DNA of 64,000 nucleotides from Saccharicrinis aurantiacus (lineage in GTDB: Bacteria > Bacteroidota > Bacteroidia > Bacteroidales > Marinilabiliaceae): contig NZ_LYBV02000023.1 of NCBI RefSeq assembly GCF_001660705.2, positions 1 through 64,000 of the forward strand. The letters run 5' to 3'. The notes below the pieces were generated by a model, which was not told where the DNA came from, made no database searches, and saw only the letters and a program-made list of their open reading frames with translations. Shown here one piece after another: positions 6,237 through 63,836 of the stretch (position 1 is the stretch's first letter; each line of letters starts with the position of its first letter). The translations under genes were made by a program, and so were the position numbers.

Positions 6237-6422
6237 TGTTTCTTATTCTAATAGTTGCCAACTAATATATATCCCACTAGTCCGCGATATATTTAACAAA
6301 AACCAAATATATAAACATTTCGTTAACGTTTGTAAACGTTTACCGCTATAAGTGACTTAAAAATAAGAGTAATGTGGGTCTTGTTTCTCTTTTGCATCAG
6401 GCGCTTTGGGATTTTGTTTGAT

Positions 6423-6610
6423 GCAAGCTTCCTGCAACTTTGCAACAGAGTTGCGTCACAGACGCAAGCTTCCTGCAACTTTACGGCGGATTTGCGTCAC
6501 TGACGCAAGCTTCCTGCAACTTTACGGCGGGTTTGCGTCACTGACGCAAGCTTCCTGCAACTTTGCGGCGGGTTTGCGTCACTGACGCAAGCTCCCTGCA
6601 GCTTTGCATG
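6423..6610. repeat. Tandem array of a 41-bp palindromic unit, about 4.5 copies
   Basis: Copies start at 6423, 6464, 6505, 6546 and 6587, an exact 41-bp period. Each unit contains GCAAGCTTCCTGCAACTTTG (G/A variants) and ends in TTGCGTCA-C-TGACGCAA, a perfect 8-bp inverted repeat around one base. First and last units are diverged, as in arrays that grow from the middle. The array sits about 120 bp upstream of the DUF6261 start. There are no unique spacers, so it is not CRISPR. The rest of 6237-6729 shows only AT-rich sequence. Confidence 0.9.
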
Positions 6611-7919: not shown

Positions 7920-7943
7920 ATCCTTTCACGTTCATATTTCAAA

Positions 7944-8975
7944 ATGATAAGTTATAAATTACTTTACAGCTCGCCTACCTTGCGTAATTAAATCATAGGC
8001 AAGCTGTAAAGCATTTCAGTCTTCACACTCCCGAATTACAAAACGCCTTGAGATCGCCGCGTGCCTCGCGATGACGCAATAACGTAGTCTTACACACCCT
8101 TTTGCGCCTCGTCATTCCGAGGCACGAAGGAATCTCAAGGCGACTTTATTAAATGAAGTGGTAAATGATAAGTTATAAATTACTTTGCAGCTCGCCTACC
8201 TTGCGTAATTAAATCATAGGCAAGCTGTAAAGCACTTCTGTCTTCTCACTCCTGACTTGCAAAACGCCTTGAGATCGCCGCGTGCCTCGCGATGACGCAA
8301 TAGCGTAGTCTTGCACACCCTTTTTGCGCCGCGTCATTCCGAGGAACGAAGGAATCTCAAGGTGGCTTTATTAAATTAAGTGATAAATGATAAGTTATAA
8401 ATTACTTTGCAGCTCGCCTACATCGCGTAATTAAATCATAGGCAAGCTGTAAATCACTTCTGTCTTCACACTCCCGAATTACAAAACACCTTGAGATCGC
8501 CACGTTCCTCGCGATGACGCAATAGCGTAGTCTTGCATACCCTTTTTGCGCCTCGTCATTCCGAGGCACGAAGGAATCTCAAGGCGACTTTATTAAATGA
8601 AGTGGTAAATGATAAGTTATAAATTACTTTGCAGCTCGCCTACCTTGCGTAATTAAATCATAGGCAAGCTGTAAAGCACTTCAGTCTTCACACTCTCGAC
8701 TTACAAAACGCCTTGAGATCGCCACGTTCCTCGCGATGACGCAATAACGTAGTCTTGCAAACCCTTTTTGCGCCTCGTCATTCCGAGGCACGAAGGAATC
8801 TCAAGGCGACTTTATTAAATTAAATGATAAGTTATAAATTACTTTGCAGCTCGCCTACCTTGCGTAATTAATCATAGGCAAGCTGTAAAGCACTTCAGTC
8901 TTCACACTCCTGACTTACAAAACGCCTTGAGATCGCCGCGTGCCTCGCGATGACGCAATAACGTAGTCTTGCGCA
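7944..8975. repeat. Five tandem copies of a ~220-bp double-hairpin unit
   Basis: Units start ATGATAAGTTATAAATTACT at 7944, 8165, 8387, 8609 and 8824 (spacing 221, 222, 222, 215). The last lacks its 3' part. Each carries hairpin 1 (ACAGCTCGCCTA pairing with TAGGCAAGCTGT across ~18 nt) and hairpin 2 (CGCCTTGAGAT...GTGCCTCG pairing imperfectly with CGAGGCACGAAGGAATCTC further on). Copies are very similar, differing by scattered substitutions, and no frame stays open through them. Parts of both hairpins recur at 50390-50470. With the inverted repeat and CG tract it fills the 7480-9146 gap, which has no gene. Confidence 0.9.
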
Positions 8976-9005
8976 CAACACAATAGAATAATTCTCCCAT
9001 AAAAA

Positions 9006-46386: not shown

Positions 46387-47232
46387 CTAAAAAAAACAGC
46401 TAAAGTGAAAAATATCTTAATAAAAATAAATCTATTTAAAGCTTCTGAAACACATGGATTAGTAAGGTCTGAGCCCCACATAACACCTATAAAAAAAGCC
46501 ACACAAATATAACAAAAACAAGCTAGCTCCAATGATCAAACAGCCCCCTTTTTTAAAGTATTTAAAAGGCTAAAACAGGCTTAAAACACCTTATAACGCC
46601 ATATAATTAACTACACACCCAAATATTACATATTCCCAAGAGACCACTTTCTAAATTTGGCTAAAAAGCACCTTAAAATCAATGTACTTTTCACGTGCCA
46701 TTCATAAGCTTTTGCTAAGAACTAAGAAAACATCCGTAATTACTGACTTAAAACAGCAAACAAACCCAAATGATTTTCTTTATTTGCAACAAATAAACTA
46801 TTTTCGCAGTTCCATCAAATGGTGGTAACCAATAAGGCTAAAATCCGTACCCTTGTTGGGTTCTGTTTGGAAAATGCTTGGCATACCAAATGCACATTAC
46901 AATCACAAACAGAAGCAAGGTATAAACCAATCACTTAGACACACAAGTTGTGACTGAGCGTGGCGAAGCTGTATTTAACTGCTAGCAATCACTCTTAATT
47001 CCTATCTAAAACTTCAAACTCTAGAGCCTAATAGCTAATCACCAACAACTAAATACCAAGCTGCAAAACCTAAAAACTAAGACCTAATAGCTAATAACCA
47101 ACACCTAAGCACTAAAAACAAAATCCTAAAATCAACCCTATTAAAAAGAGCCTGTAAAAATTCTTTCATACAGAAAGGGCTTACACAAGCGAGTTCCATC
47201 AAATACTATTGAAAACGTTAAACCTTTATGAG
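46387..47232. promoter_or_regulatory. Capsule-locus leader: promoter-like boxes, stem-loop and repeats
   Basis: This 846-bp stretch between gyrB and the capsule locus has no gene. TAAATTTG (46652-46659) is a perfect -7 box and TATTTTCG (46799-46806) a near one. At 46851-46920 CCTTG and TTCTGTTT pair with AAACAGAA and CAAGG, with an inner TTGGCATACCAA hairpin, giving a ~70-nt structured leader. AGTTCCATCAAAT occurs twice (46808-46820 and 47192-47204). From about 46960 to 47130 lies an array rich in CTAATAGCTAATAAC-type words. The layout suits a regulated long leader, but this is inferred. Confidence 0.45.
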
Positions 47233-48513
47233 ATGAATAATAAAATTGCAATAATTGGCCTTGGTTATGTAGGTCTTCCTTTGGCTGTTGAATTTGGAAA
47301 AAAAAATCAGACAATTGGCTTCGATATTAATCAAGAACGTGTAAACGATTTACAAAAAGGACACGATCATACCCTAGAGGTAGAAGACAAAGACCTAAAA
47401 TCGGTTTTAAATACTCAAAGCGAGAATTATGGTTTGTCATTTACTTGCAATATCGACGATCTGAAAGGATATAATATATATATAGTAACTGTTCCTACAC
47501 CCACTGATAAAAACCACCGCCCCATATTAACCCCACTAATTAAGGCAAGTGAGGCTATTGCAAAGGTAATTACTAAGGGGGCCATTGTTATATACGAATC
47601 AACAGTATACCCTGGTGTAACTGAAGACGAATGCATCCCTGTTATTGAGAAGCACTCAGGACTAAAGTTTAACGAGGATTTCTTTGCAGGATACTCCCCT
47701 GAACGTATCAACCCAGGTGATAAAGTACGCACCTTAACCAAAATATTAAAAATTACCTCAGGCTCCACTCCCGAAGTTGCAGATACTGTAGACGCATTAT
47801 ACAACACAATTATTACTGCGGGTACGCATAAAGCCCCTAGTATACGTGTGGCTGAGGCTGCTAAAGTAATTGAAAATAGCCAACGTGATGTGAACATAGC
47901 CTTTGTAAATGAACTATCGCAAATATTTAACCGATTAGGGATTGATACACAAGAGGTATTAGAAGCGGCAGGCACAAAATGGAACTTCCTCAAGTTTCAA
48001 CCGGGTTTAGTGGGAGGACACTGTATAGGTGTTGACCCCTATTACTTAGCTCAAAAAGCACAAGAGATGGGCTATACGCCTGACATGATTATGTCGGCAC
48101 GTAAGCTTAATGATGGCATGGGCAATTGGGTAGCTTCTGAAATCATTAAACTGATGATTAAAAAAGGAGCCACCATAAAAGATAGCCGTATACTAAATCT
48201 AGGGATTACCTTTAAAGAAAACTGTCCGGATATACGCAACACTAAAGCAATCGATCTCATTGATGAGCTTAAAGAATATGGTTGCCAAGTGGATGTTTAC
48301 GACCCTTGGGCAGGTAAAGAAGAAGTACAAAAAGAATATGGTATCAACTTAATTGACACCTATAAAAATCAGAAATACGATGCCATCGTACTCACAGTAG
48401 CACACGATGAATTCAAAACCTTGGATATAGATAGTCTAAAAGCATCAAACATCACAGTAGTATACGATGTAAAAGCCATTTGGGATAAAGCAGTTATTGA
48501 TGGCCGTCTTTAG
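47233..48513 (+). CDS. UDP-sugar (TviB/WbpO-type) 6-dehydrogenase
   Basis: The ATG at 47233 gives a 426-residue protein beginning MNNKIAIIGLGYVGLPLAVE (Rossmann loop); a TTG eight codons earlier is unlikely. The middle domain has VIYESTVYPGVTEDECIP, AEAAKVIENSQRDVNIAFVN and the catalytic Cys264 in LVGGHCIGVDPYYL. The C-terminal domain has NLGITFKENCPDIRNTK. It oxidises a UDP-HexNAc (UDP-GlcNAc/GalNAc or UDP-ManNAc) to the uronic acid with two NAD+. It is the first gene of the polysaccharide locus and indicates an acidic sugar in the polymer. Confidence 0.92.
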   Translation: MNNKIAIIGLGYVGLPLAVEFGKKNQTIGFDINQERVNDLQKGHDHTLEVEDKDLKSVLNTQSENYGLSFTCNIDDLKGYNIYIVTVPTPTDKNHRPILTPLIKASEAIAKVITKGAIVIYESTVYPGVTEDECIPVIEKHSGLKFNEDFFAGYSPERINPGDKVRTLTKILKITSGSTPEVADTVDALYNTIITAGTHKAPSIRVAEAAKVIENSQRDVNIAFVNELSQIFNRLGIDTQEVLEAAGTKWNFLKFQPGLVGGHCIGVDPYYLAQKAQEMGYTPDMIMSARKLNDGMGNWVASEIIKLMIKKGATIKDSRILNLGITFKENCPDIRNTKAIDLIDELKEYGCQVDVYDPWAGKEEVQKEYGINLIDTYKNQKYDAIVLTVAHDEFKTLDIDSLKASNITVVYDVKAIWDKAVIDGRL

Positions 48514-48690
48514 TTAGGTGTTAGGGATTAGGGATTAGGACGCTGCGCTGTAGGGGTTAGGTATTAGCGATTAGGTGTTAGATGTTAGCAATTAAGACTT
48601 AGTTCTATAGTTACTAGGTGAACTGTAAAATCCGACAACTTATGCAAGCTGCAAAGCCTAACAACTAAGAGCTAAAAACTAATAACTTAA
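48514..48690. repeat. TTAGG-rich/CTAA-rich fold-back array, copy left of the four-helix-bundle gene
   Basis: The 5' half repeats TTAGGTGTTAGGGATTAGG-type words, with GACGCTGCGCTGTAG and TAGTTACTAGGTGAACTG; the 3' half holds the complements (CCTAACAACTAAGAGCTAA). A central AACTGTAAAA and GCAAGCTGCAAAGCC recur in other copies. The two halves can pair as a long irregular hairpin. Confidence 0.75.
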
Positions 48691-48696
48691 AATAAA

Positions 48697-49056
48697 ATGA
48701 GCTCCTTTTTTAAAGACCTACTTGTTTGGCAAAAGTCCTTACAATTTGCAGATAAGGTAATAGCGAGAACTGAAACTTTAGATACTAGTGCGAAACATTA
48801 TAGGTTAATTGAACAAATAGAAGCTGCTTCGGCCTCAGTACCGCAAAACATTGCTGAAGGAAAGGGACGTTTCCACCCTAAAGAATTTGGTCAATTCTTA
48901 TTCTATGCAAGAGGTTCATTGTACGAAACCATTACGCTACTCCACTTATTTGCAATGCGCAAGTGGATAACAAACTCTGAATTAGAAACCTTTGAACAAG
49001 AAGCAAACGAAATTGGAAAGATGCTAAACGGATTGATCAATTCAATTAAATACTAA
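48697..49056 (+). CDS. Four-helix-bundle protein (S23/23S-rRNA-IVS family)
   Basis: The 119-residue protein is all helical with the family marks FKDLLVWQKSLQFADKVI near the start, IEAASASVPQNIAEGKGR in the centre (SxxxNIAEG) and FLFYARGSLYETITLL. Relatives are encoded in intervening sequences of 23S rRNA genes in some spirochaetes and Coxiella and stand alone in Bacteroidota. They form pentameric barrels and have no proven role. It is unrelated to polysaccharide synthesis and lies between two copies of the TTAGG/CTAA array, which suggests it came in with them. Confidence 0.88.
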   Translation: MSSFFKDLLVWQKSLQFADKVIARTETLDTSAKHYRLIEQIEAASASVPQNIAEGKGRFHPKEFGQFLFYARGSLYETITLLHLFAMRKWITNSELETFEQEANEIGKMLNGLINSIKY

Positions 49057-49270
49057 ATATTAGGTATTAGGACGCTGCGCTTTAGGTGGTAGGGATTAGT
49101 TGCTAGGGCGTTACGCTGTAGTTACTAGGCGAACTGTAAAACCTAGGAACTAACTAACCAAGCTGCAAAGCCTAGCAACTAAAAGCTAATAACTAAGAGC
49201 TCACCAACAAGAGCTAAAAACCAACACCTAAAAACGAATAGCTAAACCCTAACAACTATTTCAACCAAAA
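49057..49270. repeat. TTAGG-rich/CTAA-rich fold-back array, copy right of the four-helix-bundle gene
   Basis: It begins ATATTAGGTATTAGGACGCTG and shares TAGTTACTAGGCGAACTG, CCAAGCTGCAAAGCCTA and CTAATAACTAAGAGCT with the copy at 48514-48690, in the same order and orientation. It is degenerate, with many one-base variants. Confidence 0.75.
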
Positions 49271-49274
49271 AAAA

Positions 49275-50066
49275 ATGACAGCAGAATACCAATATACAGA
49301 ACCATTAAAGGAACGCCATGCCGATATTGAGGCACTAAAACAACTGGCGCTAATTGAGGAACCCTCTGAGGAAAGCAAGCAAGACTTATTGGAGCTCAGC
49401 AATCGACTATTCTTAAATGATTATGAAAGTCAAGATATTGAAGTGGCACGCACACAGTTCTTTGATTTCTGGGATATTGAAATGGATAACTCTGGTATAA
49501 TACCCATTGAATTAAGTGGTACAACAGATAAGGTACACCTAGAGCGTATAGATGAGATCATTGATGCGCTAGAGTTTGGCGAAGATTTAAAATCATTCAA
49601 GCTAAATAAACTAGCCGATCAACACCCCGAAATACCATTCTTCACTTTGATGAATATTGTAGCTATGGAACTTCAGGGTAAAGAGCCCAATAAAATACTC
49701 AAGAAAATTAAGGAAGCGTGTTCAGTATATCCACAGAACATATTATTAGCACTCCTGCAAGACCAATATCTGATTATTCAAGATAAAGAAGCGGTATTGC
49801 TTAAAGAAGCAACACTAAAGCAAGGGAGCATGAGCAAGCTAATGAACGGGCGCCAACATATGCATCCGCTAGAGTTATACATAGCACACGCAGCCCTCTT
49901 TGAATTTGTAGCCTCCAAGGAGGATCTACTTTCAACAGATACATTCCTATTTACAAGCATGGAAGTATATCCCGAGGCCGAAGAGGTATTCAAACAAAAA
50001 AGCATGCTGCTTGACTTACACAAACTAAACTATTGTATTGAGAAATATGTGCCTGAATTGGCGTAA
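49275..50066 (+). CDS. Helical cytoplasmic protein of unknown function
   Basis: The 263-residue protein is acidic, has no signal or TM segment, and is predicted almost wholly helical by its heptad-like pattern. Segments such as EIPFFTLMNIVAMELQGKEP and NKILKKIKEACSVYPQNILL resemble TPR-like helical pairs without matching the consensus. I do not recognise the family. It lies between two arrays of the TTAGG/CTAA type and before the ABC exporter. Confidence 0.6.
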   Translation: MTAEYQYTEPLKERHADIEALKQLALIEEPSEESKQDLLELSNRLFLNDYESQDIEVARTQFFDFWDIEMDNSGIIPIELSGTTDKVHLERIDEIIDALEFGEDLKSFKLNKLADQHPEIPFFTLMNIVAMELQGKEPNKILKKIKEACSVYPQNILLALLQDQYLIIQDKEAVLLKEATLKQGSMSKLMNGRQHMHPLELYIAHAALFEFVASKEDLLSTDTFLFTSMEVYPEAEEVFKQKSMLLDLHKLNYCIEKYVPELA

Positions 50067-50742
50067 TTAAAAACTACTGTGAGAGCTTTAGGGGTTAGGG
50101 AGTAGCTATTAGGTACTAGGACACTTCGTTGTAGCCACTAGGCCAACTATAAAATATACCTAAGCCCTAATAACTAGAAGCTAATAACTAAAAACTGATC
50201 CTCAATATCGCGTCTCTGCAACGAAGGAAGCAGTCTCAATCTGATGTAATTAGTCATTAGTGTGAAGACTTAAGGCAGCAGTGTTTCAATTTTTTTACTA
50301 AACTAATAAAACTTCCCCCTTGGCGAAGGGGGCTTATATAAAACTTATTAAAAAACAAGGTGAAAATAGGGGGATTGATTTTATTTAGTCAGTAGTATGA
50401 AGACTTAAGGCAGCAGTGCTTTACAGCTCGCCTTAAGATTCCTTCGTTCCTCGGAATGATGAACAGCATTTAGGTTTATAAATAATCAATTTTAAACAAT
50501 TCCCCCTTGGTGAAGGGGGCTTATATAAAACTTATTCTAGATCAAATTAAACTATAAGGGGATTGGAATTCAATCGTTAATGTAATTACTACCAAATAAT
50601 AATCAAAAAAAAAAATCTCAGCGCCTCTGCGCCTCCGTGTTCATCAAGTTACTACAAACGAATCTCTATAAACCAATCTATTATCTAACATCTCTAAGCT
50701 AACTACTACCAAAAACCTTACCACTCACAACTAAACAAACAC
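50067..50742. repeat. Gene-free region with at least four repeat families
   Basis: In order: a TTAGG/CTAA array (about 50080-50205); GTGTGAAGACTTAAGGCAGCAGT at 50260-50283 and a second copy from 50396; a CCCCCTTGGCGAAGGGGGC hairpin with GGCTTATATAAAACTTATT, at about 50313-50350 and again at 50501-50538; a GCTTTACAGCTCGCC plus GATTCCTTCGTTCCTCGGAA stretch (50421-50458) shared with the 7944-8975 array; and a CAGCGCCTCTGCGCCTCCGTG piece (50617-50637) of the family around the GxxExxY gene. No gene. Confidence 0.8.
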
Positions 50743-63234: not shown

Positions 63235-63330
63235 TTAAAGAACCACAAAGGCACGGAGTAGTCGCAGAGGGCACAGAGAACAAATTTGGCGCACTTTGCG
63301 TAAAACTCTGCGGTTAAACTAAAGAATAAA
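63235..63330. repeat. Palindromic repeat left of the GxxExxY gene
   Basis: It runs AACCACAAAGGCACGGAGTA, CGCAGAGGGCACAGAGAAC, TTTGGCGCACTTTGCGTAAAA, CTCTGCGGTTAAA. The ends AACC(G/A)CAAAG and CTCTGCGGTT are inverted copies. The same layout recurs at 63716-63836, with weaker copies at 61798 and 50617. Confidence 0.85.
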
Positions 63331-63333
63331 CCT

Positions 63334-63712
63334 ATGACTGAAAACGAAATCTCTCAAAAAAATAATAGGTGCTGCTATAGAAGTGCATAAAGCACTAGGC
63401 CCTGGCCTACTAGAAAAAGCCTACCAAGAGTGTTTATATTATAAGCTACAACAAGATGGCCTGAAAGTTGAAAAAGAAAAGCCAATGCCTTTGATCTTTG
63501 AAGAGGTGAAATTGGAATGTGGGTATAGAATAGATTTGTTAGTCGAAAATAAAGTAATAGTTGAACTAAAGAGTGTGGAAGTTCTAAATGATGTACACTT
63601 AGCACAAACCCTCACCTACATCAAATTAGGAGATTATAAGTTAGGCTTGTTGATTAATTTTAATGTGGCATTATTAAAACAAGGGATTAAACGAGTAGTT
63701 AATAACTTGTAA
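63334..63712 (+). pseudogene. GxxExxY family protein (PD-(D/E)xK-like), frameshifted near the start
   Basis: The family N-terminus MTENEIS is encoded from the ATG at 63334. The A7 run at 63356-63362 throws the frame, and the rest (GAAIEVHKALGPGLLEKAYQ) continues one frame over. Removing one A restores MTENEISQKIIGAAIEVHKA, the usual family start. An internal ATG at 63383 opens the frame seen directly (109 residues) but loses the first 17 residues. The name-giving motif is GLLEKAY. The nuclease-like signature RIDLLVENKVIVELKS follows (Asp and Glu-x-Lys). Function is unknown. It is bracketed by two palindromic repeats. Confidence 0.8.
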
Positions 63713-63715
63713 AAG

Positions 63716-63836
63716 TAAGAAGCGCAAAAAAAATGAACCGCAAAGGAACAGAGGATACGCAGAGGGAACAGAGAAATGAAAACTTAGCATTCTTTGCGAA
63801 AATATCAGCGAACTCTGCGGTTAAATAAAAATAAAT
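63716..63836. repeat. Palindromic repeat right of the GxxExxY gene
   Basis: It contains AACCGCAAAGGAACAGAGGA, TACGCAGAGGGAACAGAGAA, CTTTGCGAAAATATCAGCG and AACTCTGCGGTTAAATAAAA. The ends are inverted copies (AACCGCAAAG/CTCTGCGGTT). It matches 63235-63330 in order and orientation. Confidence 0.85.

Follow-up and report, generated by a model that had tools for sequence, protein, structure and literature searches.

Fold-back repeat arrays flank S23 genes outside rRNA: a probable intergenic relative of 23S rRNA intervening sequences

Introduction

The protein family described by PF05635 and TIGR02436 is named S23, or "23S rRNA-intervening sequence protein", and its members are also annotated as "four helix bundle protein". 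Genes with the latter annotation occur in many phyla and have no assigned function, and intergenic heptamer repeats have been noted without a cause. In the 64,000-nt stretch of DNA analysed here (the window; contig NZ_LYBV02000023.1 of Saccharicrinis aurantiacus, positions 1 to 64,000) the two occur together, as an S23 gene lies between two arrays of heptads. The question raised by this locus is whether the gene and the arrays belong to one genetic element and, if they do, how such an element is related to the ORF-containing intervening sequences (IVS) of 23S rRNA.

Organization of the S23 locus

Profile searches assigned the product of the enclosed ORF (Table 1) to the S23 family with 105.7 bits for PF05635 (cut-off 33.8) and 109 bits for TIGR02436 (cut-off 24). 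The two arrays lie in the same orientation and align with 72% identity (E = 4.8e-17), and within each of them the TTAGNNN heptads come first and the CTAANNN heptads next, so that a fold-back is possible. The profile matches and the array identity confirm the statement of the earlier note that an S23 gene is placed here between same-orientation fold-back arrays. When RNA folding was compared with dinucleotide shuffles, z = -2.3 was obtained for the downstream array and only -0.9 for the upstream one. The stop codon of the nucleotide-sugar dehydrogenase gene (47209-48513) directly abuts the start of the upstream array at 48514, and the assignment of the region to a capsule locus, made in the same note, is supported by a neighbour gene resembling TviB/NDP-sugar dehydrogenases. 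The element (48514-49262) is not inside a 23S rRNA gene; it is located between protein genes, and no Rfam match was obtained in the window. The arrangement by which IVS are recognized, an S23-family ORF enclosed by terminal inverted repeats, is present here with a fold-back array on either side. The gene that follows the element (49275-50066) has an open frame of 263 aa versus 471-483 aa in its G005 and G006 homologues, its N-terminus being ~200 aa shorter; the G005 homologue has an unrelated S23 gene upstream of it.

Table 1. Array-associated features of the window.
Feature	Positions	Strand	Basis
Gene-less array, TTAGNNN/CTAANNN-type unit, CTAA arm only, upstream of the sugar dehydrogenase gene	46999..47140	+	z ~0
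Upstream fold-back heptad array: TTAGNNN arm, loop, CTAANNN arm	48514..48690 (end approximate)	+	repeat analysis
S23 (four-helix-bundle) gene, 119 aa	48697..49056	+	PF05635, TIGR02436, AlphaFold model
Downstream fold-back heptad array, direct copy of the upstream array	49057..49262 (end approximate)	+	72% identity, fold
Gene-less fold-back array, unit as in the 48514-49262 arrays (solo derivative)	50086..50200	+	repeat search, RNA folding
Array, GxxExxY gene (PF13366; ORF 63383-63712), array; layout similar to the S23 element	63238..63830	+	profile search, folding

The AlphaFold (AF2) model of the S23 protein (pLDDT 94.9) matched the four-helix bundles of the crystal entries 2GSC and 2RLD, which have five chains each, with TM-scores of 0.81-0.89, and the match to the Avd structures 4DWL and 8UB7 was weaker (about 0.7-0.8). 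With dN/dS values of 0.03-0.22, the protein evolves under purifying selection; dS was saturating in several of the pairs compared. Although its fold resembles that of Avd from diversity-generating retroelements, the latter have a reverse transcriptase together with variable and template repeats, none of which were seen with S23 here, and the single RVT_1 match in the S. aurantiacus genome is on another contig (C30) than the S23 element. An Avd-like dependence on reverse transcriptase was also considered and rejected, as G003 has six S23 hits and zero RVT_1 hits, and G002 has 29 RVT_1 hits and three S23 hits.

Gene-less arrays and other repeats

The unit of the two flanking arrays recurs at several other places in the genome. 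The gene-less array upstream of the sugar dehydrogenase gene showed no fold-back (RNA fold z about 0 versus dinucleotide shuffles). The genome harbours five PF05635 genes. Of the four besides the present one, at least three are bordered by an array on either side, and the unit differs from gene to gene. Fold-back arrays that have the unit of L005, another S23 gene locus of the same genome, but no gene were found at about ten other places, including one in the window at 8377, and they outnumber the gene-bearing arrays; genome-wide counts of this kind derive from pattern searches and from sampled stretches that total 391 kb. Solo arrays were found for both the L005 and the L004 type, and of those sampled at random only some had their best match in an S23 array of the same genome. 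A general rule to this effect was rejected, as it holds for most of the L004/L005-type arrays and for L196 and fails for L189, L198, L200 and L025.

The excess of gene-less arrays with the L005 unit favours an explanation in which the arrays are primary, i.e. self-propagating fold-back repeats produced by a DNA-level process of slippage and copying between inverted arms, with small genes such as S23 and GxxExxY as settled or captured passengers. On the whole this explanation is considered unlikely, and the evidence that bears on it is given below.

Several other repeats were noted. The window contains a tandem array at 6419-6607 (41-bp unit, 4.6 copies, 91% matches) and, at 7942-8976, 4.7 copies of a 222-bp unit in which L005-type heptads are mixed with other repeat motifs. 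A dispersed repeat (CTTGAGATTGC...CGTCATTGCGAGG-like palindromes, and CCCCCTTGGCGAAGGGGG) adjoins many arrays (L207, L210, L219 and others) and occupies 50200-50660 of the window.

Survey of S23 loci

The survey of family genes for flanking arrays that the earlier note had proposed took in nine genomes from the genus, 40 from the order and 31 from the phylum, as well as 80 named loci that represent many phyla and groups (Nitrospirae, Acidobacteria, Planctomycetes, Desulfobacterales, Firmicutes, CPR and others), related loci being gathered with a single-subfamily alignment as the query, and its outcome was positive. Arrays with a period of 7-9 nt and/or mirrored flanks were detected at 155 of 206 distinct S23 loci (75%) versus 9 of 266 genes picked at random from the genus (3.4%), with an odds ratio of 87 (Fisher p about 1e-66). 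At the loci of named species the signal was present in 54/72 S23 genes and in 24/116 other genes nearby, a contrast that is weaker than the one with random genes, but clear. At the thresholds of the survey, arrays went undetected for about 25% of S23 genes, and these were counted against the reading of the gene and arrays as an element. The flanking of S23 genes by arrays, first seen in the window, is general.

Coincidence, i.e. low-complexity intergenic repeats lying near S23 genes by chance, could be argued from the 24 nearby genes that carry some period-7/8 signal. Such an argument is faced with the difference between S23 genes of many phyla and random genes, as well as with mirror arms that are specific to their locus, and is given almost no credence here. 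At the S23 loci of the genus, a chance origin of the array periodicity is excluded, because no shuffled flanks attained their period-7 score. The contrast between the mostly array-bearing S23 loci across phyla and the random genes, together with the purifying selection on S23, also stands against the view of this gene as a passenger of the arrays.

Arrays accompanied all four of the plasmid-borne S23 genes that were examined (Anabaena, Calothrix, Geminocystis and Riemerella). On plasmid pANA02 of Anabaena sp. 90 (L371), an S23 gene with a very long heptad array (AGGTGAC/AGGGAAC) separates cas6 from cas4 in a type I-D CRISPR operon. No S23 locus inside rRNA was found among 40 loci from other taxa by Rfam scan, and no match to S23 was obtained in 50,697 phage records.

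Structure of the arms

In 28-nt windows, lag 7 and its multiples stood out sharply, lags 8 and 16 less so, and most other lags did not. The inverted similarity of the two flanks exceeded the 99th percentile of mismatched loci at 102 of the 206 S23 loci (about 2 expected), and direct-copy flanks, such as those in the window, were found at 32. In 85 of the 88 cases compared, the upstream and downstream arrays shared their period, which was 7 in 63 and 8 in 22; the flanks often mirror each other, and the units are nearly all locus-specific (90 distinct ones among 98 upstream units); hence the period and the mirror symmetry are conserved, whereas the sequence is not. A common motif in the units that could be read by a protein was rejected on the same diversity, with AG at only 70% versus 60% in shuffles.

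The lack of a common motif is compatible with arrays that propagate on their own. The distribution of the period argues against it: on the S23 tree the period clusters, with 20 changes versus a shuffled mean of 33.9 and 0/200 shuffles as low, although near-copies add to this signal and the period still changes often. All seven array-bearing members of one supported S23 clade (L083, L084, L079, L147, L148, L150 and L154) have period 8.

Genomic sites and movement

S23 genes are situated in the sense direction inside operons, and 162 of 193 were co-oriented with both neighbours, versus 145 of 254 random genes. The site between the methylmalonyl-CoA mutase genes mutA and mutB is occupied in some cases by an S23 element and in others by a GxxExxY element, a GxxExxY gene that is truncated or a GxxExxY remnant, or it holds just 7-19 nt, the last state being found in G082, G089, G091 and G096. 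For the 13 S23 orthologues recovered at this site, the match between a locus's own upstream and downstream arms averaged above all 10,000 permutations; therefore, the arms change together at one homologous site. Among S23 pairs from different sites, which were classed using all neighbour ORFs and of which a few may be misclassed, the arrays were alike in 3% when protein identity was below 50%, in 30% when it was 60-70% and in 68% when it was 70-80%. Since array likeness rises with protein identity, the S23 gene and its arrays appear to move jointly. No target-site duplication or integration step was identified, the empty and filled mutA/mutB sites being too diverged to define a junction.

Some of these features could alternatively be explained by autoregulation, in which an S23 oligomer would wrap units in its own mRNA and control the operon, the arrays being candidate binding sites and not parts of a mobile element. 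TRAP wraps GAG/UAG repeats in RNA in this way, and the fixed 7/8-nt spacing, the position of the arrays just before the start codon (a median of 42 nt from the upstream array), the five chains in solved relatives and the strong co-orientation of S23 with the operon would all be in keeping with such a role. However, the units are nearly all different and their AG enrichment is weak, the mirrored downstream arms would be superfluous, and neither empty sites nor the relocation of S23 elements would be expected of binding sites, so that autoregulation seems rather improbable.

GxxExxY genes in a similar layout

A second gene family, GxxExxY (PF13366), which is PD-(D/E)XK-like and unrelated to the S23 family, is represented in the window by an array-flanked ORF (Table 1) with an apparent frameshift near its N-terminus. 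GxxExxY genes often lie between mirrored short-unit arrays, e.g. ACGCAGAG (the loci concerned are L341-L370, L317, L320, L321, L323-L327, L331-L333 and L336). Within the genus, an inverted score of at least 30 was reached by 10/24 GxxExxY loci versus 2/272 control genes; a fixed cut-off was used here because the mismatched-flank threshold fails within the genus, where orthologues are mixed in. In other genomes GxxExxY occupies the mutA/mutB site used by S23 elements, and a truncated gene (L313) as well as an internally deleted remnant between arms (L320) were seen there. Consequently, the format is not unique to S23, and the occurrence of two unrelated families with similar layouts, both at this site, counts in favour of the primacy of the arrays.

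Arm complementarity at the RNA or the DNA level

Selection on a sense RNA hairpin would leave G-U mismatches in excess over A-C ones. In the arms no such excess was observed on the sense strand (262:294, p = 0.19), and a slight bias in sense/antisense duplex stability was also present in mismatched arms and is thus compositional, so that RNA-level selection on the arms was rejected as a candidate. It follows that the complementarity of the arms may be written by a DNA-level process and not kept for RNA. The strand symmetry of the mismatches is also what would be expected if the arrays were primary. Trimming of RNA at the arms is plausible as a putative activity. The proposal of the earlier note that the element "inserts in intergenic RNA" is too specific, since insertion is inferred at the DNA level only.

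Comparison with known elements

In Coxiella burnetii the S23 ORF of the 23S rRNA IVS is preceded by tandem GACAGAT heptamers, the number of which varies among strains (PMC4990558). Terminal inverted repeats of that IVS form a 28-bp stem, and RNase III excises the IVS, with the 5' cut at the first heptamer (PMC4990558). The heptamers and the inverted-repeat stem point to an anatomy common to rRNA IVS and intergenic S23 elements, and strengthen the link to rRNA intervening sequences drawn in the earlier note. As in the ORF-containing IVS of C. burnetii and Leptospira, the S23 ORF lies here within inverted repeats; unlike them, the present element is situated between protein genes and has long arrays, locus-specific units and dispersed gene-less copies. 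Its protein is under purifying selection, whereas the Coxiella IVS ORF is decaying.

REPINs, or REP sequences with RAYT transposases, also comprise a gene-bearing copy flanked by fold-back repeats and dispersed gene-less copies. The S23 element shares this organization, but is without a tyrosine transposase (the gene between the arrays matched PF05635 only in the profile search), and it has short-unit arrays rather than defined palindromes, with a unit that varies by locus.

TAACTGA and other heptamer repeats were described in Beggiatoaceae, Cyanobacteria and Bacteroidetes by MacGregor (2015), as intergenic arrays often located just upstream of start codons and longer in some Bacteroidetes (PMC4679880). 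No linked S23 or other partner gene is reported for them in the portion of that paper considered here, and TAACTGA-like units are one variant among the S23-flanking arrays of this study (e.g. L296). No literature tying intergenic S23 genes to such arrays was found in open-access text, although an earlier description may exist. Array-flanked intergenic S23 elements are widespread and, apparently, undescribed as a class.

A model of the S23 element and its implications

Taken together, the S23 gene and its arrays probably constitute a single genetic element that is related to the ORF-containing 23S rRNA IVS but lies between genes. The S23 protein may recognize the arms in folded form, whether RNA or single-stranded DNA, and would then help to maintain or spread the element. 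At the transcript level, the arms may pair into a stem that is cut by host RNase III, by which the S23 segment would be released between cistrons; this would be harmless, because cistrons need no rejoining. A broader and distinctly more tentative proposal is that S23 genes outside rRNA form, for the most part, the core of a single widespread class of mobile elements, of which rRNA IVS would be a specialized branch and GxxExxY elements a second lineage of similar format. With the same reservation, this class would be defined by format and not by sequence, in which a very small protein is enclosed by mirrored arrays whose 7/8-nt units are arbitrary, and its units would change fast, in both arms together.

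Both arms change rapidly and in concert at one homologous site, which is in itself an unexplained mutational or selective process. If the gene and the repeats do belong together, the S23 protein gains a candidate ligand, its own arms, the repeats gain a candidate partner, and the intergenic elements would be the source population for rRNA intervening sequences.
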